Shown here: positions 10,555-64,000 of the stretch, piece by piece
Layout: each line of letters opens with the position of its first letter
How positions within the stretch are numbered: the first letter of the stretch is position 1
Assembly: GCF_024713975.1 (NCBI RefSeq)
Contig: NC_091100.1
Span: 22,519,501 to 22,583,500, forward strand
Length of the DNA stretch: 64,000 nucleotides
Origin: Paralichthys olivaceus
Taxonomy: Eukaryota > Chordata > Actinopteri > Pleuronectiformes > Paralichthyidae
Direction: 5' to 3'
Made by a program: the position numbers and the translations under genes
The notes under the pieces: model-generated
Database searches by the model: none
Seen by the model: only the letters and a program-made list of their open reading frames with translations
What the model was told of the DNA's origin: nothing

Positions 10555-11724
10555 AGGGGTAATTATGCAGATGTTTTAATCTCTGTCAAGATATTTTACA
10601 CTTCTCTGTCTTGTTTTGTTCATTTTTTTTTACTAGAAAATAGATCACTATACTTTTTATAATTAGTTTTGTCCTACTGCATTGATATTTTGAACATTTA
10701 TTGAGAACAGATACATGTTTTTTTTATATTTGTACAATCAAAAAAGTATTAAATGTAAAATGTTTAACCAACATTGTATTTGAGTGCTTAACTGACGTTT
10801 CTACACTTCACTATGCAGTATACTGTTTATATTTATATATGTAACTACAGTATACAATATACTGTATAAATAATGGACTGTGTTCCATGTTTATACACAG
10901 AATATAGGGTGACCAGGTGTCCATCTTTTTGCGTAGCATTTTTATCCCTTCTCCCATGTCCCACAAACTGAGATGATGTCCCGCATTTCGATTGGCTTCT
11001 CACAGACTTGTCTAAAATCTGGCTTTTACTCAACCGCTGTGAAGAAAGCAGGGAAAGCTGTCATCAAGGGGGTCTTTCTTTGCACGCACAAAGTCAGAAT
11101 TTATGCTGATTTCGAGTATAATGGCGAGCACAGCCAAGAAAAGGAAACACAGCTACAATAAAGACTGGGAAGCAATGTACAACTGGGTGAAGCTGGTGGA
11201 GGGTGATTCTCACAGACTTTTTCAGCTTTACTGACAGAGTTCTTTTTCAGTTTCCCACAGGGGAGAATACGATGTGAAGCAGCACAGCACGATTTTTTAC
11301 CGCCACACATCTTTGGTAATGCGTCCCGCCTCGTTCCACACAAACATATTCTTTACCCTACATTTGTTTTGTTGAGATCTGGTCACCAAACTGCATATCA
11401 TTCATGATTAAATGAACTCAAATGAGCTAGAATAGTTTTTACTTACAAAAGTATGCAATGTTTACATTACAGCAAGACAAATACATGTTAAATAAGGAAG
11501 ATTCTAAAAACACTATGGTGTAAAACAATAAAAGTAGGCTGTATATAATGTAGAACTGAAAAGCGCAATACACTTCTTAATATAACCTTGTGAAGTACAG
11601 CAGATCTACAGTAACAAGCAGTAAACAAGTTCCTCAACAATTTTACATGAGGCAGCAAATTTGACTCAGTATAAGTCATTTTTTTATGATCAAACTGTTT
11701 ACCTGGGATCTTAAGGACCAGTGT

Positions 11725-12065
11725 AAAGGCCCTGTTCAGACCTGGTATTAACATCCGTCCTGAATGATGCGATCTAAAGTGGTCACAGGAGACACATTCG
11801 AATGTCAGGTGTGAACAGAAGAGCCTGTCAACATGTGGCCGCTGTGTGAGTGAGATGCGTCCTGGGCCACGTTGGAAGGACCACCTACTCAGCTGGTGCC
11901 TTTTAAACGCATTTTTAAGCTTCTCTGTGCTCTTAAGTCGATGTGTGTGTGGCCACCTGTGTCATCTCCAAATGAGGTCTGAGTGATCAGGACACATCTA
12001 GGTGCTTTCACACATGAACGAGTGCTGATCACTTGCGATCTGACCACTCAGGACAGATGTTAGGA
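11725..12065. repeat. Foldback (MITE-like) DNA transposon remnant
   Basis: The left arm near 11747-11790 (taacatccgtcctgaatga, then a GATC-containing stretch) is matched in inverted orientation near 12015-12062 (ending cactcaggacagatgtta), with a spacer of roughly 225 bases. The outer phrase 'ggccctgttcagacctggt' recurs inverted at 33800-33832. Related internal phrases recur at 14040-14170. This pattern indicates a non-autonomous DNA transposon family; the superfamily is not determined. Confidence 0.6.
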
Positions 12066-13207
12066 GAGTGTAGGAGAACCTGCTGTGGCCTTCAGGCACC
12101 GTCAAGACTCTCTCTATAACCATAGTTTGGTCAACAGTATGGTGGGCTACTGCACCAGATATGGATATGAAGGGCTCATTCTGAGGTGAAGAAAACATGA
12201 TTCTTAGTTTCAGGTGATTCTACACTAATAAAAACATCACTATCAATGTTAATATTGTTTTTCATTTCTGCTGACACACCCTCCTAATTCCTTCACAGGG
12301 GTCGTTTCATTTACTGAAACAATTGTTGAATTCCTTCTATATAGAATATTATAATATTCTGTCTTTGGAGAACACAAAACAAATGCAACAGTTTAGTCAC
12401 AAGGTGGAACTTTCACACGATACAACCACAGAGTTTGACAGTCTACACATGTATTGTCATTTATACATCATATGTTTTTTTGGAATTTGGCATTAAGGAT
12501 TAAAAAAAATAGGAATACCTTTCAATCTACTGTATTCAAACAAAGTAAGGCACTAGATACTACAGAGTTCTTAATACACAGAAGAAACTTAACTGTAAGT
12601 CAGTCGTACAGTTCCAAACTATACTCGCGAAATAAAGTGATGTTCGAATACAGATTTTTCTGCATCCAGCTGAAAGGGGAGGAGGGGTCTAAAAGTTCAG
12701 TTTCTCTCTCATCTATTTTCAAAGACCTCCAGAATTTTTCCTTTCTCTTTTTTTCCCCAGTTCATCATGAACACACCAAAAACTGAGGCACTCTCTTACC
12801 TCGCTGTTTTGCAAAATTAGCGCGTTCACACAGGTGTTTCTTTTGAATCATTGCTGATCAGAGCCTTTTGGGCCTTTGCATGACTGTGATAAACATTTGG
12901 ACTGAAAGAAATGAAAGGCTGGCACAAGTCTTCAGCTGGGGAGACACACCTCTGAAGCAGAGTCAATAGCCAGAAGTTAGCGAGCGAGTCACAGAAAAGT
13001 CAACTTCCAGCAGTTGTGAGTCAGTGCACGTTCATCTGTTTAGTGGCCGTAGCTTTGAGGAGACCACTGAACGGAGGGTGTGGGATGTATTGGTGTTATT
13101 TCTTTAAAGTATAGCCTGCTCATGCTAGCTTTTCCAGGATTATCAACCCTAGCTTTCATTGGGGGCTTTGGTTTATAGTAATAATCCAGTTTAAATCTGG
13201 ATAAGTT

Positions 13208-13210
<3 letters not shown>

Positions 13211-13282
<72 letters not shown>
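13211..13282. repeat. (TG)36 microsatellite in a 3' UTR
   Basis: A pure 72-base TG run, read as (CA)n on the - strand. It begins 10 bases after the stop codon of the PR/BED/hAT gene, so it should be transcribed in that gene's 3' UTR. Confidence 0.97.
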
Positions 13283-13284
<2 letters not shown>

Positions 13285-13292
13285 GCGTGCGT

Positions 13293-16200
13293 TCATAGGA
13301 CCTTTTCACTTCCACTGTTCTTGTCATCGTTCCTAACTGCTGTTTGATCAGCGTCACACGTGGACATGTGGTTGTGGTGCAGGAAGAGGATGGCGTCCAA
13401 ACTTTCTGGTGGAATGTTGGCTCTCTTTCTGTACATGGTTCCCACTCCTTCCCGCAAAAAGTCCAGTGCGGCATTGCCTGCCACGGCGGGAGCGGCCAGG
13501 TAGGCCCGTGCAACTGTTGCCAATAGTGGAAACTGTACAGCCTTCGTCCTCCACCACTGCAGAGGCTCCACTCCCAGCGAGGCCCCCTTACTTGCCCTGA
13601 AGACAGACATCTCCATGTCTACAGACTCCTCCACAGAGCTCTTCTTGCTCCGGGGGGTCGAGCAGAACAGGTCTCCCAGCAGGAACTCCATACCAGAGAG
13701 TGCACTCTGGGAGCCCGGCTCCTCGTTCTCATCTGCCTCTCCAATGTCGCTGTCGTCGTCCTCATCGTCGACCTCTCTGAAGTTGATTGGGCGGGAGTCT
13801 TTGAGGCGTTTGCTCCTCCGCAGGAAGTCGCTATCTGACGCTGGCGACCCAGGGGAGGAGCTTCTCTTGCTCTGGCTCTTACAATGGCTCCTCCTCATTT
13901 CCTCCTTCGCGATCCTGACGGCCTCTTTCTTCAACCAATCAAATGTAGCCGTCTGCTCCTAGAAAATATTCACAACAGAAGTTTAGTGTTATCCTTAAAC
14001 AAATCAAGTGGCTGGTCTTTTGTATGTTGTGCAGCCCCATTTACATTCACACAGTGAAAATAATGGGTCCACATGCGTCCCAGACCACCTTTGAATGCGG
14101 TTTGAGTGATCAGATCTCAGGACGTATTGCTGTCCACTTGTGATCTGATCTGGGCAAACGTACTGATAGTTTCTCCAGGAGCACTAACACCACAACAGCA
14201 GTCAATAAGGCACAGCAGCAACTCTCCTTCCACTGCTGGTGACTTTCTACCACTTTTCCATTGTGCTGATGTGTTACATCTCCACATGATCATTAACTTG
14301 GCCCCGAAAATCTATCCATTTATTCATCTATCCCTAAAACGTTCAGGGATCAGGAAGGTTATTGTAGTTAATCCTGATGGGAACCAAATTAACTACATTT
14401 AATGGCAAATATATAAATAGTTGTCAAGTCATTTCATTAAAAACTGATGCTACACGTTAAGTCAGTTTACTTCATTCTGAGGACATCCACTGTCAGCACA
14501 AAATTTCATGGTGAACAAATCAAGCTTTGCTAGTGTGGTTGAAAAAATTCCAGCGATACCAGGCCCCAGCTATTCACTAACCAGTCCCCTTCATTTAAAC
14601 TGACTCACCTTTTCCTCCATGAAGCCCAGCCCGTGGAACTGTGGGTCAAGGGAACATGCCACGCACAGAACCCTGTTGACCACAGGGTTGTCGTAGCAGC
14701 TCGACAAGTTTCGCCTCATCATCCTCTTCACTTCCTTTAAGATGGATAACGAATCTCCTGGCCGGGAGACGAGGTGGCGGGAGAGCAGGCCGATGAGAAT
14801 GGGTTTGATGAGGGACAGACGAGGGAAGGCCTCTTTGGCCAGGGTCCGACAGGCCACGTCCAGAGGTCTGAGCACCAAACACAGATCCTCCAGGACCTTC
14901 CAATCAGAACGCATTGTGAGGTTTGCTGAGGACGTGTTGGAGGTGGAGTTTGCGTGGCAGATGCCAGATGAACTGGTTTCTGAAGCAGCGTCTCCTTTAG
15001 ACAACTCCTGCATTTTCGTCTCTTTTATTACATCACAGACAAGGATTTTATGTTTGATGAGCATGCTCAGTAGAGGGTAGAGCTTATTCCACGCTGGCCG
15101 ACAATGAGCCCACGACTTCAGCTCGGCCTGTTCCTGTCTCGTCAGCATCTGCAGCAGACTCTGGACATGAAGCTGAAATGAGCCTCTGGTTTGAGCAAGC
15201 GGCAGGAACAGTGTTGATACAATACCCTGAAACTGGCAGAGGGTCTTGGAGATGACATGATGTGACATCACTTCCTCGATGCATTCCTGCACAACGCTGA
15301 AGAAACACGGGATAGATGGAAGCCCCTCACTGGATTGGCTGCACTCAGAGCCATGTGGTTCCTCGGGTGACACGGATTCATCCCTTTCAAGAAATGTTGT
15401 TGAGTTTGGGTGAGGGACGCTTACGACCACCTCTCCACCCTTCTTCCCTTTTATTGTGCCCAGCCTCATTATAAGCCTTCCTTCCCCTCCCAGCAGCACC
15501 AGATTAGGCTGAGAGATCCCCCACTCCTGTGCCATCACTTTGACTTGTGCCTCCACTGCTCGCAGGGTGTAGTCGTTCACCCCACTCTCCATCAGTCTTT
15601 GGGTTGCCAGGGCCAGGTTCTTAGACATAAATCTGGCGTCTATGCAGTGTGCCCAGATGGTGAGGTACCTCTCGGGGTTGCCCTGCCAGTTGTGAGACCA
15701 AATGTCCACACTTACAGTGACAGAGTGATAAACTTCCCTATGATGGCCGGGAGGTCGGCCGCGCCTCCTGGGCTCACACTCGATGGGAGCGGTGTAGTCA
15801 GATATGTCCTCGTTCTCTCCACCTACTGTTTTCCTCATCAGCAGCTGAGACAGCCTCGCCTTGCCCTTGGTGTGGTGTTCTCTCAGGAGGTACTCAAGCT
15901 GACACGGTGACGGCAGATCCTTGCAGGAGGGCAGGAGGGTGAGGATCAGCTGTTTGAAGCCCTCCCCTTCCACCAGAGCCGGGGACTGGAGATCCATGAT
16001 GAGGAAGTTGATTATGGCATGGGTCACTTGAGTAGACAAAACCAGGGGGAATGTGTTGACCAGGCTGTTGTTGCCCATCAGTGACTGAGGGTGTTGTGGT
16101 CCTGTTGAAAAAAGAAAGAAAAGAAAATCTTTAATCCCCAAATAATCTTCCACAGTTTGACAGCACATTTCAACAAAGCCTGTTCAGATGGTACAAATAA

Positions 16201-18193
16201 GATTCTAACTTAAAAGCCTTTTTTTCCCTATTATTTATGTCTATTTAGTTTTTTATAAATTTATTTTAGAGATTTGACTTTGCGTATCAGCCGATAACGA
16301 AAACCAATCTGATGCTTTAGAGTTTGCTGTTTGAGTTCATCCTTCTTTCCCAGGCTTTATGAGATTGCTACGAGTGCCGCCTCTCAAAAGAGACCTATTA
16401 ATTACTAGAAATCACTTCTTCTTCACTTCTAAAAAAAACGTATTGGCCCGTTGCTGCGATTTATCAATGTGTCCACCATATTGGTTTGGGCAAGACTAAA
16501 ATGTCAAATAATACAAGTAAATGGGGGAGTTACAGCTTCTCTGGATAAAAAGCACAGTGAATTTAACATTTCAAAAAGTAATTTGTGTTTGTGATCTGTA
16601 TACTTCAGCTATAATCGCTGCTGAGCGTTCATGACCAACAGTATAATCATGGTTGCTGTTACAGTTTCCTGAGGGAGCATTACTAACATTTGACTTGTGC
16701 TCAGTTTTACTTTATCCTCCAAATTAGATCGTTTGGCTCAACTCTTAGTTTGAAAATAAGTGCTAATCTTTTTGCTCTGCTGGATTTTGTTGTGACAATG
16801 GTTCTCAGAACCCAGCATGTATTCGGGTTTTCCAAAATGATCGAGAAATCTTAAAAAATGAGGTTCAAGTCGTAACAAACCAGAATTTGCAGATAACCTT
16901 GCTACGTTGTCACTGCACCTCCTCTACAGTGTTAGCACTATTTGTTACCCGTTATCAGAAGACCCCGCTCCTTGTTGCCGTCACGTGTTCTGATGTGGTG
17001 CTTGCTGGTCAGGTGGTTTTGGAGGTCCGCTGCTCCTCCTGCGCAGCTCACACGCTCCCCACACAGCTTACACACCACGCTGCTCCGGTCCAGAGGCCGA
17101 CCAGTTGGGTCCGGCTCGAACCCAAAAAAGTACCATGGGCTGTGTTGCGTGACGTTTGGGCTACTCAGCAGTTTCTCCGTTCCAGGCATAAAATCGTACT
17201 TTTCCATCAGCTGGGAGCTGGGGAGCGGGAAAGACATGATGGAGGTAGAGGGGAAGGTGGAGCCAGACAAGCCCCCCGGATCAATAGCCGAGTCTGGATT
17301 TGACACTGTCGTCACGTCACTGATGACAGGCATGGGGCTCTGTGATTGGCTGTGATCTGACCAAAGGGAAGTGCTGCTGGGCTCCGGGAGGGTGACCAAC
17401 TGGATGTCTTGCAGGAGGCGCAGAGCCGTTTCCTTTTCTCCGATTTCACATTTTACATTGTCGCCTGTATTGACCCGCGAAAAAACAGAGGAACAGGATA
17501 TTGACAAGATATTCAGCAAGTTACACATCACAACCGACATCAGCTGAAACATTTAGGTTACAAAACAATTTGGTTCAGCAAGTCTGTAACTATGACATGA
17601 CAGGAAGCCAGTGGGACAGAACTCACCCATCCCGAGGCCCAGCAGGGTGGCATAATCCTTCCCAATCCAGACTCTGAGCTGTGCTCCCTCTGTGACGGGC
17701 TGGGACACCTTGTAGTAGATGTGACGGTAAAACTGGAAGACAAATAGATTGTGCTCCTCCTCATTGCTCGTATATGTTACATACCTACAACACAGAGAAA
17801 ATACAAACAGTGTCTGTGTGAGAGCATGACTCTGACAAATAAAGCTAAACATTAAATTAGGGCTGAAACGAGTAACTCAAGTTACTCGAATAACTACAGC
17901 TCAGTGCTGTACAGATTGGCACATCTGTGTTGACTGGTTTAACATCCACAATGTCCTTTGACACTAAACCCTTAGCCTTGTTGTCAGGTGATAATACTCT
18001 GCTGCTCTGCTGCTTCATGGAGCAGACGCTTCTTGAGTTTCATGCAGCTTCAAAATCAATGTTGCTGATACACAAAAATTAGCTAAATAGGTTTATAAGT
18101 TGTCTACCAAAAATTCAACAGATGGTGAGGCCAGTGGGCAAGTTATGTCATCAGTATGCACCTGATTATCATGTTATCATGCCGCAGCCCCAA

Positions 18194-18245
<52 letters not shown>

Positions 18246-20823
18246 TTTTTTTTATGTACTTTGTAAATTTTATCTTTTTTATCAGATTACTCAATAATCT
18301 ATAGAAGGACTGCAGGACTATTAACATTAGTGAAATAAATACAAACTACCCACCTCATCCAATTGGATTTATTTTCATCAGAAGCGTCAATGTAGATGAA
18401 GGAAGCATCATCTCTAATCTGGAGATAGAAGCCAGCTTTACTTGAACAATTTTACACTGAATTTTTCAACACAAACTACAAAGAACCTGATGGTTGTAGA
18501 TCTGACTGAAGCACAAAACAGGACTATTATTTGTAATAACTTGATTTTAAACTGCCTCATGATTCGACTCGTATACTTACAGCCCAGGCGTATTTGAGGC
18601 TGTTCGGCATTTGACCCCTGCACATTTCTCCTACGTAGGGCCCAAACATGACACCTTGCTGGAGGTGACACTTGGCGTACACTTTCACCTCTCCCATCGG
18701 CTCCTCGCCAGAAGATCCAGGACCAGACATGAGAGACCCATCCTCCCCACACAGGCACAGGCAGGAAGGCAGGGACAGCACTGCTCGAGAGGGGCCGCCG
18801 TGGAGCCAGGGCTCCCCGGGCGGCAGCACCGCATCCGGGACGTAGTTCTGATTTGAAGCGTTCTGCAGAAATGGAACATCCTCAAAGTATTCTTCATGGT
18901 TGAGATCGAAACCTAGAACATAACAGAATAATAAATCCAATACTGAAGTGAGGTGGGATATGGTATGACGATCCTCTTTACGGAGCATGTTCTAGCTTGG
19001 TGTTTTGTTTTAAAACTAGAATTACTGCCCTGTGGTCGTGCACCTCCGTCAAACAGAACAGTTGCAGTCTCATTAAAAAAAATCCAGAATCACATGAGGC
19101 CAGTGTGGCACTTGGCCAAACCTAATCAGCCTGACAACTGATCAAAATGTTCAGATACTTCCAAAAGGCAGACTTGTTATATCATGTTCAAGAGCAAAAA
19201 TATGTTCTGTGAGGTCACTGTTACTTTGACCTTGTAACAATTAATTCCAGCTCTCAGTGCCATAAAACTGGCAACCCCACACAACTCTTCTTTGCCGTTT
19301 CGCACTGATCACAGTTTCCTCTGCAAAATGAACATAGTGGAAACCCTGGATCAACAGAAGTGTGTCAGTGGCCTGTTCAGCTCTATCTTCTCTGCTGTGG
19401 CCAGGTTCACCTGCAGCCACTGAGACTCTGCCAGTGAAGCAGTTCACAGCCCATGTCGTCCACTCCTTCATAATCTGATTTATTTCAGTCCTGCTGTCTT
19501 CAAGCTCCAGCTCCAGATCTCTGGTGGGATGCTTCATAACTCAACCTGTATTTTGTGGCTGAGGTTTGCTCTGATTGAGTAACCACATGCAAACAGATTG
19601 GAGTCTGGATGTTTGTGCTCCTGCATTGTCAGGGAATTTATTAATTCATTAATATTCCCTATGACTTATATTATGCCTGACCAAAATTGTGTTCCACAGA
19701 TGGTTGACCTGAGAGGTCTGACGGCATCTGTAGGAATGCACTCGATTAGAGCGTTTATGTTTTGTATCAGGAGTTGCCATCCTGTCTCTGGTGTTGTGAT
19801 AAGGTGAACCTTGAGAGTCTGCACTCTTGTAACGACGATGGCATCCTGACATAGGAAGAGCCTGCAAAGAAAGTCCAGAGGCTCTCCAGAGTTCAGTGCA
19901 TGTCTGAAAGAAGCTTTATAGTGACCTGCATTTCTATCCCTCCCTTTTGTGTATAACAATGAAATGGTTCTATTGTACTTCAAGCTTTTTGGTCCTGATG
20001 TACATTAGACCACGTTGTAATAAACTTATACATTTAAATAAGGAAAACTGGGCCACATTGAGTTCACTCTTTTCTCCATAATTGTGAACACTGTTTAGAA
20101 ACTCAGCCATCTTTCACTCATCCTTCCTGTTTGTTACCTGGTCAGCCTCAGTAACACAGGCCTGAGGGGGGATGTAAACCCAGTCGGTGTTTAGAGTATG
20201 GAGGTGGTCTGCACGCATTTGAATACGCAGCCTACATTCTTTATCTGATACAATGCATTCATTGATGTGACACATTAATAACATCGTTCACTGCTGCGAC
20301 ATCACATGTTTCTGCTGAGTAAAACAACTACACGTGGTGTGTGTGTGTGTGTGTTAGTGTGTGCTCGTACAGGAAGACCACCAGACCCAGGGGCTGTGTT
20401 TCTCCACCTTCAGCCGCTCCCTATACAACTTTATGAATCACGCTGCACATGCATTTTGTCACTTCAGATGAGATGCATGTGGGAATTACAATGGCCGTCA
20501 GTGCTGTGAGGCTAAAATGTGATGCACACTTCCACCTCCGTGAGTGCAGCCACGCCACATCACTGACTGTGTGTGAACTCACCTGGAGACTCAACCAAAG
20601 CTCCAGGGGTCGTGGGGGTAGAGCTCTCGAAGAAATCTGCTCGGTGTCTTCTCTTCAGGTGACTTCTGAGGTTGGTGGTGTTTCCACCTTTCGCCAGCAC
20701 TATTTTTCTGCACAGGCGACACACGGCCTCTCCGGAGTTCAGCGGCTGCCCCTTCTCGTCCGCCTTCAAACCGAAGTACAGCCACACGATGGATTTGCTC
20801 CTGGGTTTACTGATGAGATCCAT
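13293..20823 (-). CDS. BED finger - PR/SET - BED finger - hAT transposase-derived fusion protein
   Basis: Seven exons on the minus strand: 20823-20583, 18912-18581, 18418-18354, 17784-17627, 17464-16949, 16101-14609 and 13958-13293. Phases fit at all six junctions and give about 1156 aa. Domains in order: BED zinc finger, about residues 11-64 (C35, C38, H55, H60); PR/SET domain, about 121-262 (GPYVGEM, DASDENKSNWMRYV, then VWIGKDY); second BED finger, about 373-422 (C397, C400, H416, H421); AT-hook-like RRRGRPPG near 549-556; hAT RNase-H-like region with SVDIWSHNW (D570) and YLTIWAHCID; an acidic stretch near 998-1015; hAT dimerisation region, about 1068-1133 (LQWWRTKAVQFPLL, ending FLHHNH). 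The start chosen is the ATG just before BED 1 (context GAC-ATG-G); an in-frame ATG at 20970 is possible. Probably a nuclear DNA-binding regulator. I know no named PRDM or ZBED protein with this order. Catalytic sites look degenerate, so enzyme activity is doubtful. Confidence 0.85.
14035..14215. repeat. MITE-like fragment in an intron
   Basis: Located between the last two coding exons of the fusion gene. Phrases such as 'ccagaccacctttgaatgc' and 'cttgtgatctgatctgg' resemble the internal part of the foldback element at 11725-12065, so this is probably another degenerate copy of that family. Confidence 0.45.
18195..18238. repeat. (CA)22 microsatellite
   Basis: A pure CA run of 44 bases in the intron between the two exons that encode the second half of the PR/SET domain (18354 and 17784). 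A short AT/T-rich tail follows it. Confidence 0.97.
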
Positions 20824-23790
20824 GTCTCCGTGTGTCTCCGCTCCTCCGCGTCGGAGGCAGTCAGCGCTCCACTGACAGCAGGTAGAGAAAAACACGTCAG
20901 GACAACAGCCGCTGGGTTTCGAATGCGCGTCTACTGGTAGTGTTACGGTACAGATGCTGGGAGTGGTCAAAAAGGACGAAAGGCCTAATTCAGCAATTCT
21001 TTCTTTTTCTAAGCTGATGAAGAGGAAAATAACAATTAATGCACATTATGTGAAGTTCCATCAAATCAAATAAAAGTTAGTCCAATGTAGTGTTTATTTT
21101 AAAATGGATCTCAAGAGTTAGAATAACAATAACAACTATTAATATTATTATTAATACTAATTATATTATCGTTAATGTTATTATAATTGTTATTCTTATT
21201 ATATCATTATTATTATTATTACTACCAAACCAGTTATTACTAATATATTTTGTTACAATATATTTTAAGTGATATTAAACTTGTGCATTTTACACACACA
21301 CAGTATATTATATATATATATATATATATATACATATTACTGGCATCATGTGTATGTAACCATGTATGTATGATTTCTATTTTGAATATATTTTTGCTTG
21401 TGTTCCAATCTGTTACTTTAATGATGTTTCTATTCTCACTCTTGTCTTTATTGCTGTCTTTATTGATGTCCCCATTGTGCAACTAATAAAGTATTATTTA
21501 TTGCATTATAAACACATTTCTTCATGTTGCACTGAAAACTCCTTTGTAGGTGACTTGAACATCAGTTCCTGTTCAAGATGACTCTTAATATACCTTCCCT
21601 TCAATTTTACTATACAGCTTTCATAAGGTTTAAGGAGAAAATCGGCTGAATTGACAGTTTGAAACATACATAATGTCCTCATATAAAATATTACCTCTAA
21701 AAAAAAACCTTAATAGGTACCATGAGACCTTCAAAAGATTCCTCCTTAAAAATATATTCATAGAAAATGTAAAATAAGATCAAATGAGATTACAGGATCA
21801 CATTACCTAATCCAGTTGAAATATTTTCTTAAATAATAGTACATAGAATTTACATGTCTGAATATTGTGTGTTTAGATATTGGATAATATGACATAACAG
21901 AACAAAACAGTGCTCTGTTATGATAGTGGGTACAAATTCAAATATCTTTTAATGTATTATATTATAACAAACATATATTGAAAATGATACATTAACTCCT
22001 TTTTTTTAAGGCAAAAATGTATGCTCAATGCATAGTCAATGCAAAAAGGTCTAGAAGTGCTGGAGCCAATGATACTGCTGTGCAGTCTGATGTTTGTGGT
22101 TACAATGGATTCACTGCTGCTGTCTATAGATTGAACTAGATAGTGTCTGGAAAAACACAAAACTGTATTGTAAAACAAATACTGAAAGAACAAATACAGC
22201 TGACAATAGCAGGCCTCTGGCCTTTGAGTTTGCAGACTCTCGCTCTCTTCTCTTGCTGTATATCTGTGTATATCCACTCTTTATTATAACTGGACTATAA
22301 TATGAGAGTTATATGTGTGTGCTTTTCTTATTTGCACAGGATATACGTGACAATCAACTATCAACTAATCACAAAAACTAAGGGTGAGAGGAACAGGTTC
22401 TTGAAACCCAACAATGAAAAGTCACTAGTGATGTAGTGAATAGTAAACGATGATGCTGACAGGGAATCAGACTAACAGACACTGTGTCATCGCCACTTTG
22501 TTTGTTGAAAAAAAACATGTTCACTTCTTGTTACCTATAAAACAAAGACGTTGGTCATATATCTGTGTTCCACAATTGTGTATTCAGATTACATCTATTT
22601 TTCATGAAGCACTGTAACATTCATTAACACTATGCAGCTGACAACTGCCTTTATTACTGAGGCAAATCACTGAGAGAGGAAATGTCTTTATTATCCTAAT
22701 ACAGGCAGTGCTAACGTTGGTAAATTAAACGTGGTTAATTGAGGCAGAAAGACAAAAACAGCATCACATAACTTCAGACCAGAGGGTCAACAGTAAAACA
22801 TGAGCTCCTGTCCTGTCCCTATAGTCGCTTGTCTTTTTACAGATGAGAAAATGACTGTGATCATTGTGGCATATCGTTATTAATAATATTTTAGGTATTG
22901 AGTATTTGAAAAGGAGTGTGTATATATTGTTTTCAATGCACCGCAGATTAAAATTTAACAATTATGGAAATTGCTGAGTTTTTATTTTCTAAACTTTTTT
23001 GAAGTAGCCAAGACATGGGCCTGAACAATGCATTACCATGGTTGTTGGTCATTTTTACAGCCCCTGATTATAATATTAAAATACTCTGAAGTATTTGTTC
23101 TCATCACGAGAGAGGAACTCGGGTTCTTCTTCGTCTGTTTTGGCCTCTCCTATCACCCTTACTGTAACACATTGAATAGACAGGCATCACATCTTTTCAC
23201 AACACCACTGGTTTCCGTATAAGAGAATCACGCCGGTTGTCTCTATGCAGTGTTTTAAATGTGTGCCACATATATCCAAATGAGAGAATCTAAATCTACT
23301 CAAGCTTCATCTCGTGCCATTAAGGATTTACCTTGACGTGCAAACATCGTTATTATGGTGTGGTTCACTCATTCCATGGCTCTAACTGAGGATCAATACA
23401 AAATATAAACCCAACCAACATCCACAAACATCTGGAATCCACCTTTTCGACTCCACTGCGTGAAATCGTCAAACCTGGCAACAGCGCTGGTGTGACTAAC
23501 CACAGAGTCTCCTGCCTCCAGACCTCACTGCTGGGGAAGTGCTGCTGCTGCCTAAACCTCTGCACGGCCATTGCTGCGCTTTAAAGGTAAGCTCCATTAT
23601 CATGAACATGGTTTTAATCAATCGAACAGCAATCGAATAACGCGAGGTTTATCAGGACGTTTGACGGGGAAACGTTGTCGGACTGTGTTCGATTCCTCGT
23701 CACACTCAGAGGTCACACAGTCTGGTCTGTTTCCCACACTTCGGTTTGAGTTTCTTGCTAGTACCTCCGTTTCACGGTTAGCTCACGCGG
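20824..23790. other. Intergenic region, mostly AT-rich
   Basis: It includes the upstream region of the fusion gene (moderately GC-rich from 20824 to about 20970) and then about 2.5 kb of AT-rich DNA with a (TA)n stretch at 21304-21333. No exon could be supported. A donor-like AAAG|GTAAGC sits at 23586/23587 on the + strand and might end an untranslated exon of the coiled-coil gene, but I found no strong matching acceptor. Confidence 0.4.
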
Positions 23791-23980: not shown

Positions 23981-26179
23981 ATGGCGTCCTGCTTGGTGCC
24001 GGACCTCCCCGCCGTCATGGTCGCCCTCGAACATCTAAAGGAGCTGGACAACGCGCTGAAAGAGGAGGGAGTGCCGTTCGCACCAGAGGCCAGCCTCCAC
24101 CTGGCAGAGCTGACCGCTGCCGTCACCGACCTGGAGTCAGACCGACGTGCAGCCCACGAACATTTAGAGGTGGAAACCATAGAAAACAGCAAGCTGCGAC
24201 ACCAGATAGACAACATACGTGATCGAATGAGCCAGGAACTCATGGCCGACGTGGCAGCAGCCCGAGCATCCAATGCTGAGGAGATGGAGCTGCTGCACAA
24301 AGAGCTGAGCATGGTGTCCCTGCTGCGAGAAGCTGCTGAGAAGAGACAGGGAGAACTCCTGAGCCAAAATGAAGCATTGCGTCCTCACAGGATACGAGAG
24401 AAGGCCGAGCACGAAGAGGTCGTGGCTGTTCTGAATGATCAGATATCCCGAAAATACAGCTTGCAAATGCAACTCGACCAAACACTGGGGCGGAGAGAGG
24501 AGCTGAAGATCTGCATCGCTGCTGTCAAACAAGACAAAATATCACTGGAGCAAAACATGGAGCTGGCGAGAGAAGCTTTCACTGTGAGGGAACGCAACTT
24601 GTCCGGGGACAGGAATCAGATGGACGAGAAAGTCAAGCAGCAGAAACAAGTGATCAGGAGGAGAAGAAGAGAGCTGGGGAGAGTAAACAGCAAGAAACAA
24701 GAGAGCCATGGCCGCCTGGAAGAGCTCTCCGCTGATTCGGCCAAGATAGAGGGCAACCTACAGAGACTGACAGTATCTCGGTGCCAGTTTGAGAAAGAGC
24801 TTGAAGGTGAGACTCAAAGGCGTCAAGACCTGAGGCAACAGAGAGAAACGCTGAAGAAGGAGTTGTGTGATTTAGGAGAAGCGTTCAGCCTTACCATTAA
24901 GAATCTAAAAGAGAGAATCACTGCAGCGGAGAGCAAAATAGAGGAGGGTCAAGCATCAAGGTGTCTCTGTCAGGACCACCTGGCTCATATCCATGAGATA
25001 TTCAAGCGACAGCATGGGGAAGAGAGCAAAGTGAGGGCAGAGCATTCCCGTGCATCACAGCAGCTGGAGCGGTCCAGGCTGCAGCTGGAGGAACGCATTG
25101 CCTCCGTGGTGAAACACAACAAGGAGATCAGAGAGATGGACAAGCACATCAGAGAACTTCTGGAGGCTGACACCATCAACAAGCGTGTGTTCGAGAGGAA
25201 TCAGGAGGAGCTGTGTGCCAACGTGGATACGGAGAAGACGAACATCCGCCATCTCGAGGAGGAGAGGAACAGGCTGAGGAGACTTCTGGAGGAGGCGAGA
25301 AGGGCGCAGGAGGAACACATGGCGAAAATGACCTCTGGCATCACCAGCGCAAGGAGGCGCTATGAGGAGCTGCTGCAAGAGGAGGCAGCGCTCCAGCAGC
25401 GCCAGCCCAAGAGCACAGATGCCGACCTGCTAATGAACCACGTGACCCAGTGTGCAGCAGAATACAGACAAGTGGAGATTCAACTCCATCAGGAGATTGA
25501 GCAGTGCACCGCAGAGACTGAGGGCATCACAAGGAGCAACGAGGAGAAGCAGAGGTTGGTGGAGGAGAAAGAGGAGATGCTGAAGGAGGTGGAGGCCAGG
25601 TGGAATGAGGAGCAAAGCCGCCACCAGAGGCTGAAAACGCTGACCTCCGAGCTGAGGCAGAGGAGGGCTGAGCTGGAGCTGTCCATTCAGGGGCTGAAGG
25701 AGAAAACCATCTTTCTGCTTCAGCCCAAAGAGGAGATGAAGGTGGAGCTGGAGGAAACGCGAGCACATCACATGGATGTGCTCTCCAGACAGGCCTCAGA
25801 GCTGAGGGCTGTGGAACTGAGCATCTATGACACCAGTGTGATACTGGAGCAGGTCAGAGTGGAGAACAGCAGGCTGCATCTCTGCATCAGACACATGACG
25901 GAGGAGGTGAACAGAGTCAGGTGGAACAAAGACAGACACTGGCAGGAGGTTCACCAGTTCCACCGGGACAAACGGGCCTTGTTTGAGACGTTACAGGAAG
26001 CATGGAGGGAAGATATATTGGTAACGGAGGACTGTCAGAGGAGTGACGGTGTTCTGCTGGTGTGTATGAACACTCTGCTGAACCATCTGAAGACTAGGAG
26101 ACAGCAGTTGGGACATGTCAACACACTCCTACACCAGAAAATGCTGCATTTCAGCAGAAGACTGGGAGATCAGACATAA
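23981..26179 (+). CDS. ccdc175: Coiled-coil protein, probably CCDC175, intronless coding region
   Basis: A single uninterrupted frame of 732 codons with stop TAA at 26177-26179. After a short N-terminus (MASCLVPDLPAVMVALEHL) the protein is almost entirely charged heptad-like coiled coil rich in Glu, Arg, Gln and Leu, with no signal peptide or membrane segment. The opening (EHLKELDNALKEEGVPFAP, then ESDRRAAHEHLEVETIENS) and the overall length resemble CCDC175 as I remember it; human CCDC175 is about 790 aa. That assignment is by recollection and is moderate. Human CCDC175 has many introns, so a coding region without any suggests intron loss or a retrocopy that gained a promoter. An X-box-like motif upstream would fit expression in ciliated or germ cells. 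AATAAA at 26747-26752 is a candidate polyadenylation signal. Codon use and frame integrity argue for a functional gene. Another long coiled-coil family is the main alternative. Confidence 0.7.
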   Translation: MASCLVPDLPAVMVALEHLKELDNALKEEGVPFAPEASLHLAELTAAVTDLESDRRAAHEHLEVETIENSKLRHQIDNIRDRMSQELMADVAAARASNAEEMELLHKELSMVSLLREAAEKRQGELLSQNEALRPHRIREKAEHEEVVAVLNDQISRKYSLQMQLDQTLGRREELKICIAAVKQDKISLEQNMELAREAFTVRERNLSGDRNQMDEKVKQQKQVIRRRRRELGRVNSKKQESHGRLEELSADSAKIEGNLQRLTVSRCQFEKELEGETQRRQDLRQQRETLKKELCDLGEAFSLTIKNLKERITAAESKIEEGQASRCLCQDHLAHIHEIFKRQHGEESKVRAEHSRASQQLERSRLQLEERIASVVKHNKEIREMDKHIRELLEADTINKRVFERNQEELCANVDTEKTNIRHLEEERNRLRRLLEEARRAQEEHMAKMTSGITSARRRYEELLQEEAALQQRQPKSTDADLLMNHVTQCAAEYRQVEIQLHQEIEQCTAETEGITRSNEEKQRLVEEKEEMLKEVEARWNEEQSRHQRLKTLTSELRQRRAELELSIQGLKEKTIFLLQPKEEMKVELEETRAHHMDVLSRQASELRAVELSIYDTSVILEQVRVENSRLHLCIRHMTEEVNRVRWNKDRHWQEVHQFHRDKRALFETLQEAWREDILVTEDCQRSDGVLLVCMNTLLNHLKTRRQQLGHVNTLLHQKMLHFSRRLGDQT

Positions 26180-31478: not shown

Positions 31479-34400
31479 ATGGAGACTATGGGTAAGAGGC
31501 AGCTGTTCTTCCTTTTACTGTAGATGAGGGCGTGTTTGGAGGTACAGTATGTGTCACATACATGACTGATGTCATTGGAAGTCTACAAAATCTAATCCGA
31601 GGTGGGGGGTGTTGACGTGACAGCAGGGTATTGTATATGTGATGATGCTGTGGAACTCATGCATATGAATAAACATAGAGCCACAATTATTAACTTTCAT
31701 ATCATACATAGAAACCGGGGGGGGGGGGGGGGGGGGTGATATGTGGAAAGGAGCCGTAGTTACTGTCCTGATATCTCTCACACACAGAACAGGATCATAC
31801 ACACGGTCAAACAGTACGTGGTCACTCCTTTTATAGCCATATAGTTCTGGTCCAGAGGAGCAGAGGAGGAGGTAGTCACTGTTTCACAGTTTTCATGAGG
31901 TCAGTGTCAGATTTGTGCACATGAACATTATTTTATAATTATAATAACACTATTGTTATTTTTAAAGGTTTGAAGAACTTGTTGGATTAATCGCTCTTTT
32001 AGAAAAAAGTAAAATTAGGGCGGGCTGGAATTTAGAGAATCAAAGAGCACATTTTAAGTAGTTTTTGTACAGGCACTCATGGAGGCATCAACCACAGGAA
32101 CAGATGGCATCTGTGTGTTTGTGTGTGTGTGAGAGAGAGCGTGCACGTGATGGTGCATATTATTATCATGGTGTGAAAAGTGAAACCTGCCTCCCTCTGG
32201 TGCTGCTCTGATGAAAACACTGTGAGAGTTGATTCATGCCATTTAAAGCCGCTGCATATCTTCTGATCAAATGACAGTGTGTATGTAATGTGTTAGTAGA
32301 GATGAAGCCACAGGGGTAGATCCAGCAATAGATTGTCACTTCCTTTAACAATGTTTTATGACAAATACATCCTTTAGGTTATCAGACCACTTCCTGTTGT
32401 ATACCGATTATAACAATAACTTCATTCATAAAGCACATTTCAAAACAGCCGTTGGAAAGTGCTTCACACAGGACAGATAAACTCCTCAAAGGCCGTGTGT
32501 AGATTCATTGTTTCCAAGTTTATGAAGTGATGATATGTAGCTGTTGTGTTTAGAGCTTGTTCGCACGTGAGCAAAAAAACGTTATTAGAGGTTAAACTGT
32601 GAGACTAGAGTGGAAGGAGACTTAACGGGTCAATGTCAGGCCTGTGATGTGACGTCTGTTCTAACTGTTGATATTCTGATCGTCGTCATTAGAGGCTGCA
32701 CTAATGACTTAGTTCAACTGCGAGAAGACCGATGTTCTTAGAGGAGGTCAAAGGACAAACATGTCTTCTTACTGAGACACGCAGCAGAAATAACTAAGAC
32801 ATCACGTGAAGTGAAAAAAACCCAAACGGTCATAGTTCTTGCTCAAGATGACGGATGAGACGGTCTAGTAGGAAGTAACTCCCTGATCTGATCTGAGCAG
32901 GTTGACGAGCACTTAGTGAACCATCTGAGGATTTGTAAAAGAACACCAGCTGCTATTCAGATGTACATATCATTCAATTTAAAGATTTGTGTTTGACATT
33001 TAAAAAAAAATCTATGTGTGTTTTCCTCGTCACCAGTGTGTCCGATGGGTGGAGGAGCCACCAGGCTGTACAGCGCCCTGACTCACGCCATCAGCAGCAG
33101 CTCTCCTCCCCCACTCCCTCCCTCCCACCCGGACCCCCAACAGCCTGCGAACACAAACCTGGATCCAGACTTCTGCCCGGTGACTCCTCCGCTTCTCTCC
33201 TGTTCACAGTGAAGTTCACACTGAGATGAAATTAATATTAGCTAACATGCACGTCCTGTCTGCTTGCAGGAGCAGAGGGGGTCCCCTGTATGTCCCCCTG
33301 ATCCAGTGGAGCTGCTCCGACAGTGTGAGGAGGCCCTCAGGGACCGACCACCTCGCCTCCACAGGAAGTTTATTAACCTTAATAATGGAGACAGCGCCCC
33401 CAGCAGCCCCATTAGGGTGATGCAGTGGAATATACTGGCACAAGGTATATGGATTTTATATCGCATCACACTGGACTCTAATTTCTGATATATTAACTTG
33501 GATTTAAAAAGGATCTTTCTGAATGTAACAGAGTTCTGGTGATTAAACTGTACCAGGTCTCCTTCTCATTCCTGGTAATTTAACATATTGTTAAGTTGGA
33601 GATATCAGGATGTTTCCTCCCCTTCATTTGCTTCCATCCATTTTAAGCAAGACAAAGCTGCAAGAATTAGTTTTTACTACGGATAATATAAAACTGGTTG
33701 CTCATAGGTGACTGTTTTTCACTCTTTTTCCTTTTACCTTTAATGTGAGGTGTGAACAGATGAGCTTGGGGCTGACCCTTGCGGTCTGATCTCTTAGGAC
33801 TGATGTTAAAACCAGGTCTGAACAGGGCCTAGGAAGCATCGTTGTTTTAAGCTACAAACTGAAACCAGATCTCTCTCTTGTTCTCCTGTTCTTCAGCTCT
33901 GGGTGAAGGACTAGACAGTTTTGTCCAGTGTCCCCTGGAGGCCCTCAGCTGGTCCCGCAGGAAATACCTCATCTTAGAGGAGATCCTCACCTACCGACCT
34001 CATATCCTGTGTCTGCAGGAAGTCGATCACTACTACGACACCTTCCAGCCGGTTCTGGCCGGCCTAGGTTACAGCAGCAGCTTCTGCCCCAAACCATGGT
34101 CGCCCTGTTTGGATGTGGAGGGCAACAACGGCCCGGATGGCTGCGCACTGTTCTTTGATCAGTCGCGATTCGAGCTGCTGGACAGCATGAACATACGCCT
34201 CTCTGCCTTGAGGATCCCAACCAATCAGGTGGGTTAAAGTCCACTGTCTCTCTGTAGAACGCTTCTCAGAGGCACCTCTAACACACTGCTGTTCTGCCAC
34301 AGGTTGCTGTAGTGACGATGCTTCGTTGTCGGAGCACGGCGAGATGCGCGTGCGTGGCAGTGACCCACCTGAAAGCCCGCGCTGGCTGGGAGTGGCTGCG

Positions 34401-34824
34401 CAGTGCTCAGGGCTCCGACCTCCTGCGACACCTCCAGAATCTGGTCCAGAAACACGCCGGCGGTCCCACGGGTGACCTCAGCTCTGACATTCCTCTGCTC
34501 ATATGTGGCGACTTCAACGCAGTCCCAACTGAGGAGGTGTACCGGCGCTTTATCACATCACCTCTCAGTTTGGACTCGGCCTATAAGAAACTCAGCAAAG
34601 ACGGTTTGTCAGAGCCAGAGTACACGACGTGGAAGATCCGGCCGACAGGGGAATGTTGTAGCACTCTGGACTACATCTGGTACAGTCGGGACACACTGAG
34701 AGTGGACGCTGTGTTGGACATGCCCACTGAGGAACAGATTGGACCAAATAGGCTTCCATCCTTTAGTTATCCGTCTGACCATCTCTCTCTGGTTTGTGAC
34801 TTCAGCTTTAAGGAGGAAGAGTGA
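31479..34824 (+). CDS. noct: Nocturnin, NADP(H) 2'-phosphatase of the EEP family
   Basis: Five coding exons: 31479-31491, 33037-33179, 33270-33444, 33897-34228 and 34303-34824, in phase throughout, giving 394 aa. Nocturnin belongs to the exonuclease/endonuclease/phosphatase fold and removes the 2'-phosphate of NADP(H); it is rhythmically expressed in vertebrates. Active-site elements are visible: MQWNILAQ (N106), LQEVDHYYDT (E152), THLKAR (H243), CGDFNAVPTEE (D291) and PSDHLSLVCDF (H381). From VCPMGGGATRLYSAL onward it aligns with human NOCT, but exon 1 supplies only four whole codons (METM) in place of the human mitochondrial leader. This transcript therefore probably makes the non-mitochondrial form. 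The exon 2 donor (CCCG|GTGACT) is weak but is the only one that keeps phase. The first intron is about 1.5 kb and holds a poly-G tract. It converges with elf2. Confidence 0.95.
31717..31736. repeat. Homopolymer G20
   Basis: Twenty consecutive G residues in intron 1 of noct. The length is prone to sequencing error, and the tract is a potential G-quadruplex former on the + strand (non-template strand for noct). Confidence 0.9.
33742..33832. repeat. MITE-like fragment in noct intron 3
   Basis: Its right edge, read on the minus strand, gives 'aggccctgttcagacctgg' followed by 'ttttaacatcagtcct'. This closely matches the left edge of the foldback element at 11725 in opposite orientation. The other edge has 'gtgaggtgtgaacag', a phrase also present near 11805. 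It is a short copy about 65 bases upstream of exon 4. Confidence 0.6.
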
Positions 34825-37921: not shown

Positions 37922-49271
<11,350 letters not shown>

Positions 49272-58263: not shown

Positions 58264-61037
58264 TCACGACTGGGCTGTCACCACCACCATCGTCGTCTCT
58301 GTGCTGCCTGCAAAAGAAACACACCCATTTGAATAATATAAATATATTTGTTTCATTTACACAGCTTTATGATTTTGCACTTATCTTAAGAGTTTAAATA
58401 AGTAGAATGGACATTTGTCACAAATCCGTGTAGCCTCGATAACTTGCATTATGGTACTTATACTTTCTGGAATAATCAGTTTCATCGAGCTGTCTGATAA
58501 TGCTACTTATCCTAAAGATGTCCATTCTACCATCTCTAGTTCTACAAAGACAGCTGTATTTATCGTTGTGCTGCTTTTCAACTGGTTACCTTCTTAACTG
58601 TACTATTACATCACTGAGCAGCTTTTTACAGTCCAGACAGACACCTCTGGCTCTGTGGACACAGGCAGAAATACATCTGGTCAGAGCCACACACACCGCA
58701 GACTCAGATTATCTGTTTTCTTTAAAATGGATGAAGTGAACAGCGGTAATGTGAATATCAAATTAGCAAAATGTATTATGTGTTTCAATGTGATGCGTAA
58801 CTTACATTTATCTTCATGAATAACCTCACAGACTGCAATGTGTGTTTTGGCAATGTTTTTTTCTGTATATAGCATATCTATACTTTTCTCCCCATGACTT
58901 AAAATATCAGAAAATTGCAAATAAAAATGGATGCACTTAATATTTTTACATCTGATGCTCAGTCTATGTGTTTCATCACACCAGCCATCACGAAGCATTC
59001 ATTTATAAGTCCTTAGTAGTCATTAAAGATAAATGTCAGCTGAGCACAAGAGAAACACAGGTTGAATAAATGTTCTGCTTGGCCTACACAGTTTTTTGGG
59101 AGACTGGGCCTGTATCCCCTCTGAAACCTTCATTTAACACTACAGTCAGGTTTGAGTTCATGTTGGAAAGCGGATCATCTTTGTAAACTTTTTATGACGT
59201 TGTTGAAACATATTAACCCATGCTTGTCATTACTTGAGTGAAGTAAGTAGTTATTAGTTACACTACGAGTCAGTGTGTCTTTACTGTGTTACTACTGACT
59301 GAAAGTTTTCATGTCAAACAATTTTGTCTTCCTGGTTTAATGTAATGAAAATAGCCCACCTATTTTGCATTAAAATGTCAATGCAAACCATATAATAGGA
59401 CATTTTAAGTATTTATCAACAATTGTAAATTTACATAAGACAGGTTTTATGTCATTACAACAGTATTTGACTATATTGTCATTCATTTCTGTTTATCCTC
59501 CAACATGTGATGTCCACATGAGGCTTAACACAAAATAAAAGAATGTATAGCTGCTTACAGCTACATTACAATCTTCCAGACACAGTACTTACCTCAGTGA
59601 ATTATTTTTCAAGCATTGTCTAGTACAAGCTCTAACAATGTGTAATATCTCTGAAATCTGAAAAACAGAGTTAAAGGTACATTATCTCTATTTGACATCC
59701 CTCTTTGGGATGATAACATTTCAGCACAGTCCAGCCATTACTGATTGGTTCATTATTTCCAAGCCCCAACAATTCCCAGTTAATTATTAAACTGTACTGT
59801 GCTGACTTCCTTGCCTTAGATTTAACAAACCAAGATAAATATATTTGGTAATTTACAGGTAAGGCTAAAATAGGTATGGGGTGTTCAAAAACTCAAAGAC
59901 TGGCAGCCTGTGTGTTCTTACTTTGTCCCTCCACGTCCGACACCACCTCCATGGCCACATGTGTTATATCCACTGCTCCCTCACTGACCAGCTCCTCTTC
60001 TAAAGCAGCCAGTGGCATCACCTCCTCTCCAGCTGAGGGAGCAGAGTGGCAGGAGTGGCAGTGTGCTTCCTCATGTGCTGGAGCCTCTGATGCAGATTCT
60101 GGTTCAGCAGCAGAAAGAACTTCTAGATCCGCTGTGGTTGAGGCTGCAGCCAGCTGAGCCGTGTCCACGACTGCCACAGCTTCACTGTGTGTTGACACCA
60201 TTTCATCTCCGTCCTCTGCTGATGCTTCATCTGTTGTTTCTGCGGCCGGTGTTATCTCCACTGGTGACGTCTCATTCAGTGGAGCAGCTTCTGCAGCGGT
60301 GTTGGCCTCTTCAGCAGCTGTTATGTCCTCTGATGTAGCTTCTTCCACAGAGGCTTCAGCAGGTGAAACGTCCTCAGTTGTATCTCCAGGTGAGGCCTCT
60401 GATGCAGCTTCTTCCACAGAGGCTTCAGCAGGTGAAACGTCCTCAGCTGTATCTCCAGGTGAGGCCTCTGATGCAGCTTCTTCCACAGAGGCTTCAGCAG
60501 GTGAAATGTCCTCACCTGTAACTTCAGATGCAGTTTCTTCCACAGAGACTTCAGTGGGTGAAATGTCCTCAGCTGTAACTTCAGGTGAGGCCCCTGTAGA
60601 AGAGACAGCTTCCTCTGGAGCAGCTTCAGGGCCTGGCACCTCATCCTCATCGCTGACCTCTCCCACCTCCACTCCATGGCCTGAAACCTCACCTTCCCCT
60701 GGAGGAGATGCAGTTGCTTCCTCCTCTGCAGGAGCAGGAGTCTCCTCAGTCATCCCCTCTTCAGCAGATGGAGCTTCAGCCACTTCCTCATGAGCACCAG
60801 CCTCTGCAGACTTCAGCTCCTCCACGATCACTACTTCAGCTGCCTCCTCAGCTGCTTCCTTTGATACCACCTCTGTGGTCACTTCCACCACCTCCAGGGT
60901 GGGTTCCGAATCTTTTCCATCCTCCTCTATTTGTCGGACAGATTTCACCAGACTCGTCTCACCAACAGAAGCGGCTGCGATATCAACTGTGGAGCCAGCC
61001 AAGATCTTCACAGCTGTGAGCAGATCTGGCAGAGACT
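58264..61037 (-). CDS. mgarp: MGARP-like acidic repeat protein, 3' exon set B (partial)
   Basis: Two exons on the minus strand: 61037-59922 (acceptor phase 1) and 58307-58264 (stop TGA), joined in phase to end QSSTETTMVVVTAQS. The large exon encodes about 371 residues very rich in Glu, Ala, Ser, Val and Thr and poor in aromatics, so it should be disordered. It contains near-identical 23-residue repeats (consensus beginning EDVSPAEASVEEAASEASPG, then DTA). MGARP is an outer mitochondrial protein with an N-terminal membrane helix and a Glu-rich tail, linked to mitochondrial transport and steroidogenic tissue. Only the tail is visible here. The name rests on composition and on the order noct-elf2-mgarp with matching strands, not on alignable motifs. 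The 5' exons lie beyond the window. The open + strand frame over this exon is an antisense shadow. Confidence 0.6.
60337..60580 (-). repeat. Coding minisatellite, 69-bp unit
   Basis: Three copies start at 69-base intervals (plus-strand landmarks 60337, 60406 and 60475), followed by a diverged, shorter copy at about 60532. The unit keeps the frame and encodes 23 residues of the mgarp-like protein. Confidence 0.85.
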
Positions 61038-61987
61038 CTGAAATAGGGAAGGAGAACAGGAAGTGATGGCATGAGTTGAATTGTATCTGATATACACAGT
61101 AACGTATTTGCACATATACATATCTACTTACCTAGAGCAGAAGTCTATCACTGGACAGTCTACGTTCACCACAGCTTCAGGAAATGCTCTACAGGAAGAT
61201 ATCTGCCCAGTTCATGCTCCTACTTTTCAAAAGTGTCCTGAGACAGTAACAATCTCAGATACAGAACATCCTGTGAGCAAGCTTAACACTTTAAATTGAC
61301 AGCACTGACTTTCAAAATAAGGTACCCAACAAATTACTCGCAAAACTCTGGATGGACACATTTCAATGATGTTCAGTTTTTAGTAACAATGCATTTATGA
61401 TTTGCTAGATACAGTAGTAAACAATGTACTGGGAGTCACAGGTATGGTTTGTCACTCATCTGTCACTCAACCCTGGCAAACCACCAGGACATCCTAAAAA
61501 TGAACACTAATCTTGGATTAGTCTTAAACTGTCTGAGGCAGCTTTGAACTGCACAATGCAAAAAAAGGGATACAAGTCTGTGATTCAACTATGAACTTAT
61601 AAAGAAATCATTCAAGCTGTAAACATTAGTAAAGGTGAGGCAGTTCTAGGATACAGTATCGTGTATCAGGCAGAACAATTCTTGAAATCTTAGTTTTCCC
61701 CACTTGAATGCAAAGGAGCATGAACATGGCACAAGGATTTTTCAGGAAAGAGAATCTCTACAAAGAGGGAGTTTCTATATCTACAGAATAATTCAGTTAA
61801 CATTTCACATTCATCTAAATAAAAATGTGTTGAATGTATGCAAGTCATAAATTAGCCCTAGACACATGAGATAATGTTTGGACAAAACCTGCCAACATTT
61901 ACATGCAGGTAAAAATATCATTTATGCATACATGCCCCACACAATAAAAAAAGAGTGACTTCAAACTTATGTATCATCCAGTGATGC

Positions 61988-63578: not shown

Positions 63579-64000
63579 CTGAAGAGGAACAGAAACACGT
63601 GAACGTAACATTCTTTGACATCTCTGTAACTTGTTACATGCACCTGATGTAATGAAAATGAGAGCTTGGAAATGTTTTCTGGACCTGTTTGGATCAGTAT
63701 TTCAAATATTCCTGTGGATAACTGACAGAAAGTCTGATCATCTTTGCTGCTGTAGATACAGTTGGGGGTAAATCTCTTCTCATGTGCAAACTTCAGTGAC
63801 ACTAAGATTATCATTTGGGCCTAAATGAACTTTGGAGTTGAGATAATTAGATGAACATGTCCGTAATGAGCTCTACAGGACTGAGAGGTCAAACTGTTCT
63901 TCCAATGACCTCAGCTACCTCTGATGACCACACAGAAATCCAGAGACAAGGGCCAAATATCTGAAGCTGACCATTGGCAGAAATAAAAATGTTGCACCTT

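Follow-up and report, generated by a model that had tools for sequence, protein, structure and literature searches.

Gene organization

The stretch analysed here, termed the window, comprises 64,000 nucleotides of the genome of the fish Paralichthys olivaceus (RefSeq assembly GCF_024713975.1, contig NC_091100.1, positions 22,519,501–22,583,500 of the forward strand). Between positions 20823 and 13293, seven minus-strand exons encode what we refer to as the fusion gene, in which a PR domain sits between two BED fingers ahead of a hAT transposase body. The introns between all seven exons are of the GT-AG type and the exons splice in phase into one frame of 3,471 nt, which corresponds to 1,156 amino acids plus a stop codon and contains no internal stops. 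The exons are as follows, with coordinates referring to the window.

Exon 1, 20583–20823, minus strand: start codon, followed by BED finger 1 (residues 13–61, about 20787–20641); ends in phase 1; C2H2 ligands CRLC...HLKRRH intact by reading
Exon 2, 18581–18912, minus strand: linker, then the first part (about half) of the PR domain, with GPYVGEM; phase 1 at its start, phase 0 at its end
Exon 3, 18354–18418, minus strand: middle of the PR domain (IDASDENKSNWM); ends in phase 2 within the Arg codon of WMR
Exon 4, 17627–17784, minus strand: end of the PR domain (HNLFVFQ...LRVWIG), with Ile253 at the position of PRDM9 Y357; ends in phase 1
Exon 5, 16949–17464, minus strand: linker that follows the PR domain, then BED finger 2 (about 17138–16995); phase 1-1 exon
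Exon 6, 14609–16101, minus strand: hAT transposase core with an open frame of 497 codons, in which the first catalytic Asp motif, SVDIW, is kept
Exon 7, 13293–13958, minus strand: acidic insert and hAT dimerization domain (residues 1059–1131, about 13589–13371), with Ala1099 at the position of Hermes E572; stop codon

By reading, no other ATG precedes the start codon at 20823 in its open frame, and the region around this codon (21000–20600) has a GC content of 0.55 and an observed/expected CpG ratio of 0.83. The GC content of the coding sequence is 0.55 (0.55, 0.43 and 0.65 by codon position) compared with 0.40 for the introns. Ranked with a simple donor matrix, the six donors are mostly good and take, in exon order, places 1, 12, 3, 4, 23 and 2 among the 487 GT dinucleotides of the region. 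The open frames of exons 5, 6 and 7 were compared with 300 single-base shuffles: the 497 codons of exon 6 exceed both the shuffle mean of 109 and the maximum of 235, and the 221 codons of exon 7 exceed a shuffle maximum of 155. A single transcript is predicted to span all seven exons.

Domain content

Pfam matches zf-BED in two stretches of the protein (E = 1.6e-14), PRDM2_PR at residues 152–262 (model positions 9–121 of 123, E = 1.6e-32) and Dimer_Tnp_hAT at residues 1059–1131 (E = 5.1e-7). A generic SET enzyme is disfavoured, the SET model reaching 0.0035 compared with 1.6e-32 for the PR model. KRAB, SSXRD and C2H2-array families are not among the six Pfam families found at E values up to 1; one sub-threshold match, zf-Di19 (0.038), overlaps BED finger 2. 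Sequence searches against the PDB give PRDM9 as the best match for the PR part (8.6e-20), followed by PRDM11 (7.1e-17) and PRDM2 (1.6e-16), while BED finger 1 matches ZBED1 (3e-6) and the C-terminus weakly matches Hermes (0.03).

Between BED finger 2 and the dimerization domain, where the hAT core is located, no Pfam model matches. The body is nevertheless related to hAT elements of the same genome, with a phmmer E value of 1.5e-16 against their frames. In hhalign, run on a chosen set of element profiles made of 4/5 and 3/3 hand-picked rows, the C-terminal hAT part matches these elements with an E value of 3e-17, while the crossed pairings of N- and C-terminal parts give 0.41 and 0.46.

A sequence-only reading of the window had proposed seven minus-strand exons with fitting phases, a series of BED, PR, BED and hAT dimerization domains and a hAT core ahead of the last of these. 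The in-phase GT-AG join and its stop-free frame of 1,156 residues confirm the first proposal, and the profile search, which matches both BED fingers, the PR domain over almost its full length and Dimer_Tnp_hAT, agrees with the second. The hAT core is borne out by its likeness to the elements of the same genome.

Origin of the PR domain

A family search of the genome (a 588 Mb assembly of 25 contigs) returned 28 PR matches, which manual grouping reduced to 18 loci. A phase-2 intron at NWM-AG/G is found in three of the 18: the fusion gene, a gene on C7 and a gene on C21. Another 14 loci run through the NWM-R site in one frame, and the remaining one (C23) is unreadable there. The C7 gene has PRDM11 as its best PDB match (5.3e-70) and the C21 gene has PRDM9 (1.4e-43). 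In the PR domain, the fusion gene is identical to the C7 PRDM11 at 53 of 144 aligned residues and to the C21 PRDM9-like gene at 51 of 148, and by splice-site reading all three share the exon phases 1-0-2-1. Since among the readable loci the intron at NWM-AG/G occurs only in the fusion gene, PRDM11 and the PRDM9-like locus, the PR part is, judged by its introns, an exon cassette of the PRDM9/PRDM11 type. The phase-2 intron at NWM-R would then be a marker of this subgroup.

The C21 PRDM9-like gene (L049/L055, about 4.164 Mb) itself has Phe and Pro at the positions of PRDM9 Y341 and Y357, and zinc-finger-like frames lie downstream of it. The same Phe and Pro changes at Y341 and Y357 are described for the swordtail PRDM9-beta gene (Baker et al., in part).

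Catalytic residues

We aligned the PR domain with PRDM9 (PDB entry 4ijd, the chain of which we take to be numbered from residue 195). The three tyrosines Y276, Y341 and Y357 of PRDM9, which lie in GPY, IFY and VWYG, correspond to GPY, IYY and VWIG in the fusion gene, so that Ile253 replaces Y357. For PRDM9 orthologues with changes at these tyrosines the same mode of action has been judged unlikely (Baker et al., in part).

The hAT part retains the first catalytic Asp, within the motif SVDIW. In the alignment with elements of the same genome, neither a TTDN-type second Asp nor a CxGH motif can be recognized in the fusion gene; in the N-terminal rows of these elements the second Asp is present in four of four (TTDN in three, HDN in one), as is CxGH. 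The TRW motif is represented by AW, with no Arg before the Trp, whereas RW is kept in all seven element rows that cover the site. Ala1099 occupies the position of Hermes E572, the last residue of the hAT catalytic triad; five of nine C-terminal element rows keep Glu-Arg at this site. Both enzymes, the PR methyltransferase and the hAT transposase, thus look dead as far as residues can tell, and the transposase part is probably no longer able to cut DNA.

Copy number and constraint

Searched with the full-length protein, the assembly shows one complete place among the 40 of 281 candidates that were scored, and a second complete copy, if there is any, should rank at the top of such a search. The other matches among these 40 are 43–51% identical in the BED finger and 27–37% in the hAT part. 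At the DNA level a search of the genome with exon 6, in which very common words were skipped, gives one match. Relatives of exon 6 are found neither in viral contigs nor in prokaryote genomes. The longest 25 of 106 inverted repeats in 11500–22500 have arms of CA runs only, the search covering terminal inverted repeats of 14 nt and longer. A generic transposon copy is disfavoured by the single copy found in these searches together with the lost catalytic residues.

To judge the frame, random substitution of the coding sequence was simulated in 200 copies. These are stop-free in 31% of cases at 1% substitution, 9% at 2% and 0.5% at 5%, and none is stop-free at 10%. Compared with this simulation, which is not an estimate of the ratio of nonsynonymous to synonymous substitution, a stop-free frame over a body that has diverged so far from the other copies found argues for constraint on the frame.

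Exon phases and possible route of assembly

Exon 1 with BED finger 1 ends in phase 1, exons 2–4 with the PR domain form a 1-1 block and exon 5 with BED finger 2 is a 1-1 exon. Such phases are consistent with exon shuffling. They fit a PR block that entered a gene with two BED fingers through a phase-1 intron, and also a PRDM duplicate that gained BED and hAT exons; the order of events may have been either. The two BED fingers are alike in 21 of 59 alignment columns. BED finger 2 scores 32.9 bits against BED finger 1 and 32.0 bits against the best transposon BED finger, and since it is no nearer to the former a recent tandem duplication is disfavoured. The suggestion that duplicated BED exons flank a captured set of PR exons therefore survives in one half: capture of the PR exons fits the phases, whereas a plain duplication of the BED exon is disfavoured by a BED finger 2 that is about equally near to transposon BED fingers.

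Relation to known systems

A close parallel is SETMAR (Metnase), a host gene of primates that combines a SET-type histone methyltransferase domain with a DNA transposase (PMC8327481 and PMC12062965, both in part). The transposase of SETMAR is a mariner one, whereas in the fusion gene, which is that of a fish, a PRDM9/11-type PR domain is combined with BED fingers and with the body of a hAT transposase. SETMAR binds the relics of its own transposon, and better-kept ends are more strongly repressed (PMC8327481, in part). Neither PRDM nor PR domain is mentioned in the main text of PMC12062965.

The ZBED genes (ZBED1, ZBED4, ZBED6 and ZBEDX) likewise carry BED fingers and hAT parts, with two BED fingers in ZBED6 and in frog ZBEDX (PMC3606216, in part). 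The combination of BED finger and hAT dimerization domain is present in the fusion gene according to Pfam. A conserved DDE motif is reported for the ZBED proteins (PMC3606216, in part), whereas it is not intact here. PRDM does not occur in the main text of that paper, and no PR/SET domain is named in the first part of its section 4.

With PRDM11 and PRDM9-beta the fusion gene shares the intron phases 1-0-2-1 of the PR domain. It differs from them in that Pfam finds no KRAB, SSXRD or C2H2 array and that BED and hAT parts flank the PR domain instead. Lacking KRAB and SSXRD matches and having Ile253 at the position of Y357, it is by these traits not a PRDM9. As a rule, PRDM proteins recognize DNA with their C2H2 fingers, an array of which is absent in PRDM11. 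Compared with hAT elements (Hermes and those of the same genome), BED finger, core and dimerization domain follow in the same order, but the catalytic residues are missing, introns are present and one copy was found.

A catalogue of 58 zebrafish SET genes names no fusion with BED or hAT parts, and describes setmar as a SET-mariner one (PMC2200798, in part). The main text of PMC10027918 contains neither PRDM nor SET domain. A record in print of the BED-PR-BED-hAT architecture was not found among the papers listed by searches of one open-access library. The gene may well already carry an automatic name in public annotation.

Possible function and alternative explanations

The locus is probably a single host gene of the domesticated-transposase type, in which a host-transposase fusion would act as a dimerizing, DNA-binding and non-catalytic chromatin factor. 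The fusion is supported by the intact frame, the one genomic place, the decayed catalytic residues and the finding that the longest 25 of 106 inverted repeats are all CA runs. To this extent the host-transposase fusion proposed in the sequence-only reading holds; that it is ancient, and under selection, would be our inference. The same reading had a chromatin-type domain gain the DNA targeting of a transposon. The fusion as such is supported, while the idea that an active methyltransferase is being targeted fares less well, given Ile at the position of Y357.

How the protein would work can be outlined as follows. A PRDM9/PRDM11-type PR cassette of three exons, with phase 1 at both ends, sits between two BED exons ahead of the hAT body. 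The two BED fingers would bind DNA, possibly sequences derived from the ends of hAT elements, and the hAT dimerization domain would build dimers or larger assemblies. The PR domain, without its key tyrosine, would recruit or read chromatin partners rather than methylate, and the protein would be a transcriptional or chromatin regulator that is unable to transpose. By analogy with Hermes and SETMAR, the protein would bind DNA in dimeric or higher-order form and bring its non-catalytic PR domain to chromatin; in Hermes, the BED fingers of several dimers jointly bind the transposon end (PMC10368747, in part). DNA binding, assembly, repression and a regulatory role are all predictions. More speculatively, the gene may belong to the PRDM9/PRDM11 lineage and have swapped its flanking parts, including the zinc-finger array, for a transposon-derived body that binds DNA and oligomerizes. 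The PR domain would then be a non-catalytic adaptor, and the protein a chromatin factor, conserved in fish, with the task of coating or silencing the relics of its source hAT family, a version that we offer only tentatively.

Several observations weigh against this interpretation. On the side of the gene model, exon 5 has the poorest donor of the six (place 23 among 487), the open frame of this exon (171 codons, with a shuffle maximum of 168) is by length alone barely above chance, and neither AATAAA nor ATTAAA occurs within 13292–10801. In-frame ATGs lie directly upstream of exons 2 and 5, and shorter transcripts are therefore possible. The last PR boundary lies, by reading, about 10–11 codons earlier than in the C7 and C21 genes, although in the same phase. 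A tree of 13 PR rows, with one of ten inner branches starred, leaves the nearest PRDM open, and for this reason the assignment of the PR type rests on the shared intron. The N-terminal hAT part gives a modest hhalign match to the elements of the same genome (E = 6.6e-6, probability 85%). An ungapped reading may place a Glu at the second catalytic site, and four of the nine C-terminal element rows are also without Glu-Arg at the last site (changed, disrupted or ending earlier). The other PR loci are absent from the matches listed by the whole-protein search, which is hence no full census. Loss of a single tyrosine is no proof of lost methylation, a point made for PRDM7 (Baker et al., in part).

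An ATG-started open frame at 17552 precedes exon 5 in phase, and the join between exons 4 and 5 is predicted from the sequence. This would suit two adjacent genes that have been wrongly joined, a short BED-PR gene (exons 1–4) and a ZBED-like BED-hAT gene (exons 5–7). We nevertheless consider such an error unlikely: the donor of exon 4 (rank 4 of 487) and the acceptor of exon 5 are in phase over an intron of 162 bp, which leaves little room for the end of one gene and the promoter of another, and the matches to PRDM9 and PRDM11 extend into the first residues of exon 5, though weakly alike there. A recent hAT insertion that by chance continues the frame beside PRDM-like exons, or a decaying pseudogene, is very improbable. 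Elements of this kind are common in the genome (of 378 candidates for the dimerization model 150 were scored, and all 150 match), but the DNA of exon 6 has one match and the intron between exons 6 and 7 splits the hAT body, while 3.5 kb of stop-free frame, kept although the catalytic residues are gone, does not suit a pseudogene.

The fusion might also be real and its PR domain still an active histone methyltransferase that is guided by the transposase part, as in SETMAR, whose SET-transposase fusion binds the ends of transposons (PMC8327481, in part). Y276 and Y341 do have counterparts in the fusion gene (GPY and IYY). Against this, the position of Y357 is Ile, and PRDM9 orthologues altered at these residues are judged unlikely to act alike (Baker et al., in part), which makes an active enzyme a rather doubtful alternative. 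If the preferred interpretation, a non-catalytic host-transposase fusion, is true, it would be another union of a SET-type domain and a transposase beside SETMAR, with a separate origin. The exon phases would provide a concrete route of exon shuffling, and DNA targets of the protein, should these be the ends of hAT elements, could be predicted and tested in fish cells.

Neighbouring genes

Upstream of the fusion gene and head to head with it, the plus strand carries an intronless coiled-coil frame of 732 residues (23981–26179). It has no Pfam match, and NCBIfam gives only generic SMC-like and helix-rich matches far below the cut-offs. The frame is possibly a retrogene and may resemble CCDC175.

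The other features observed in the window are as follows.

34282–34824, plus strand: nocturnin (NOCT) exon, PDB match to Nocturnin with E = 4.1e-69
37922–38518, minus strand: frame without Pfam match, which may be the last exon of the ELF2-like gene
39265–39831, minus strand: exon of an ELF2-like ETS factor, PDB match to Elf-2 with E = 1.9e-18
59893–61131 and 62998–63633, minus strand: Ala/Glu/Pro-rich frames with internal repeats and no Pfam match

By their place beside ELF2, the last two frames may be MGARP-like. NOCT and ELF2 presumably adjoin in human too.

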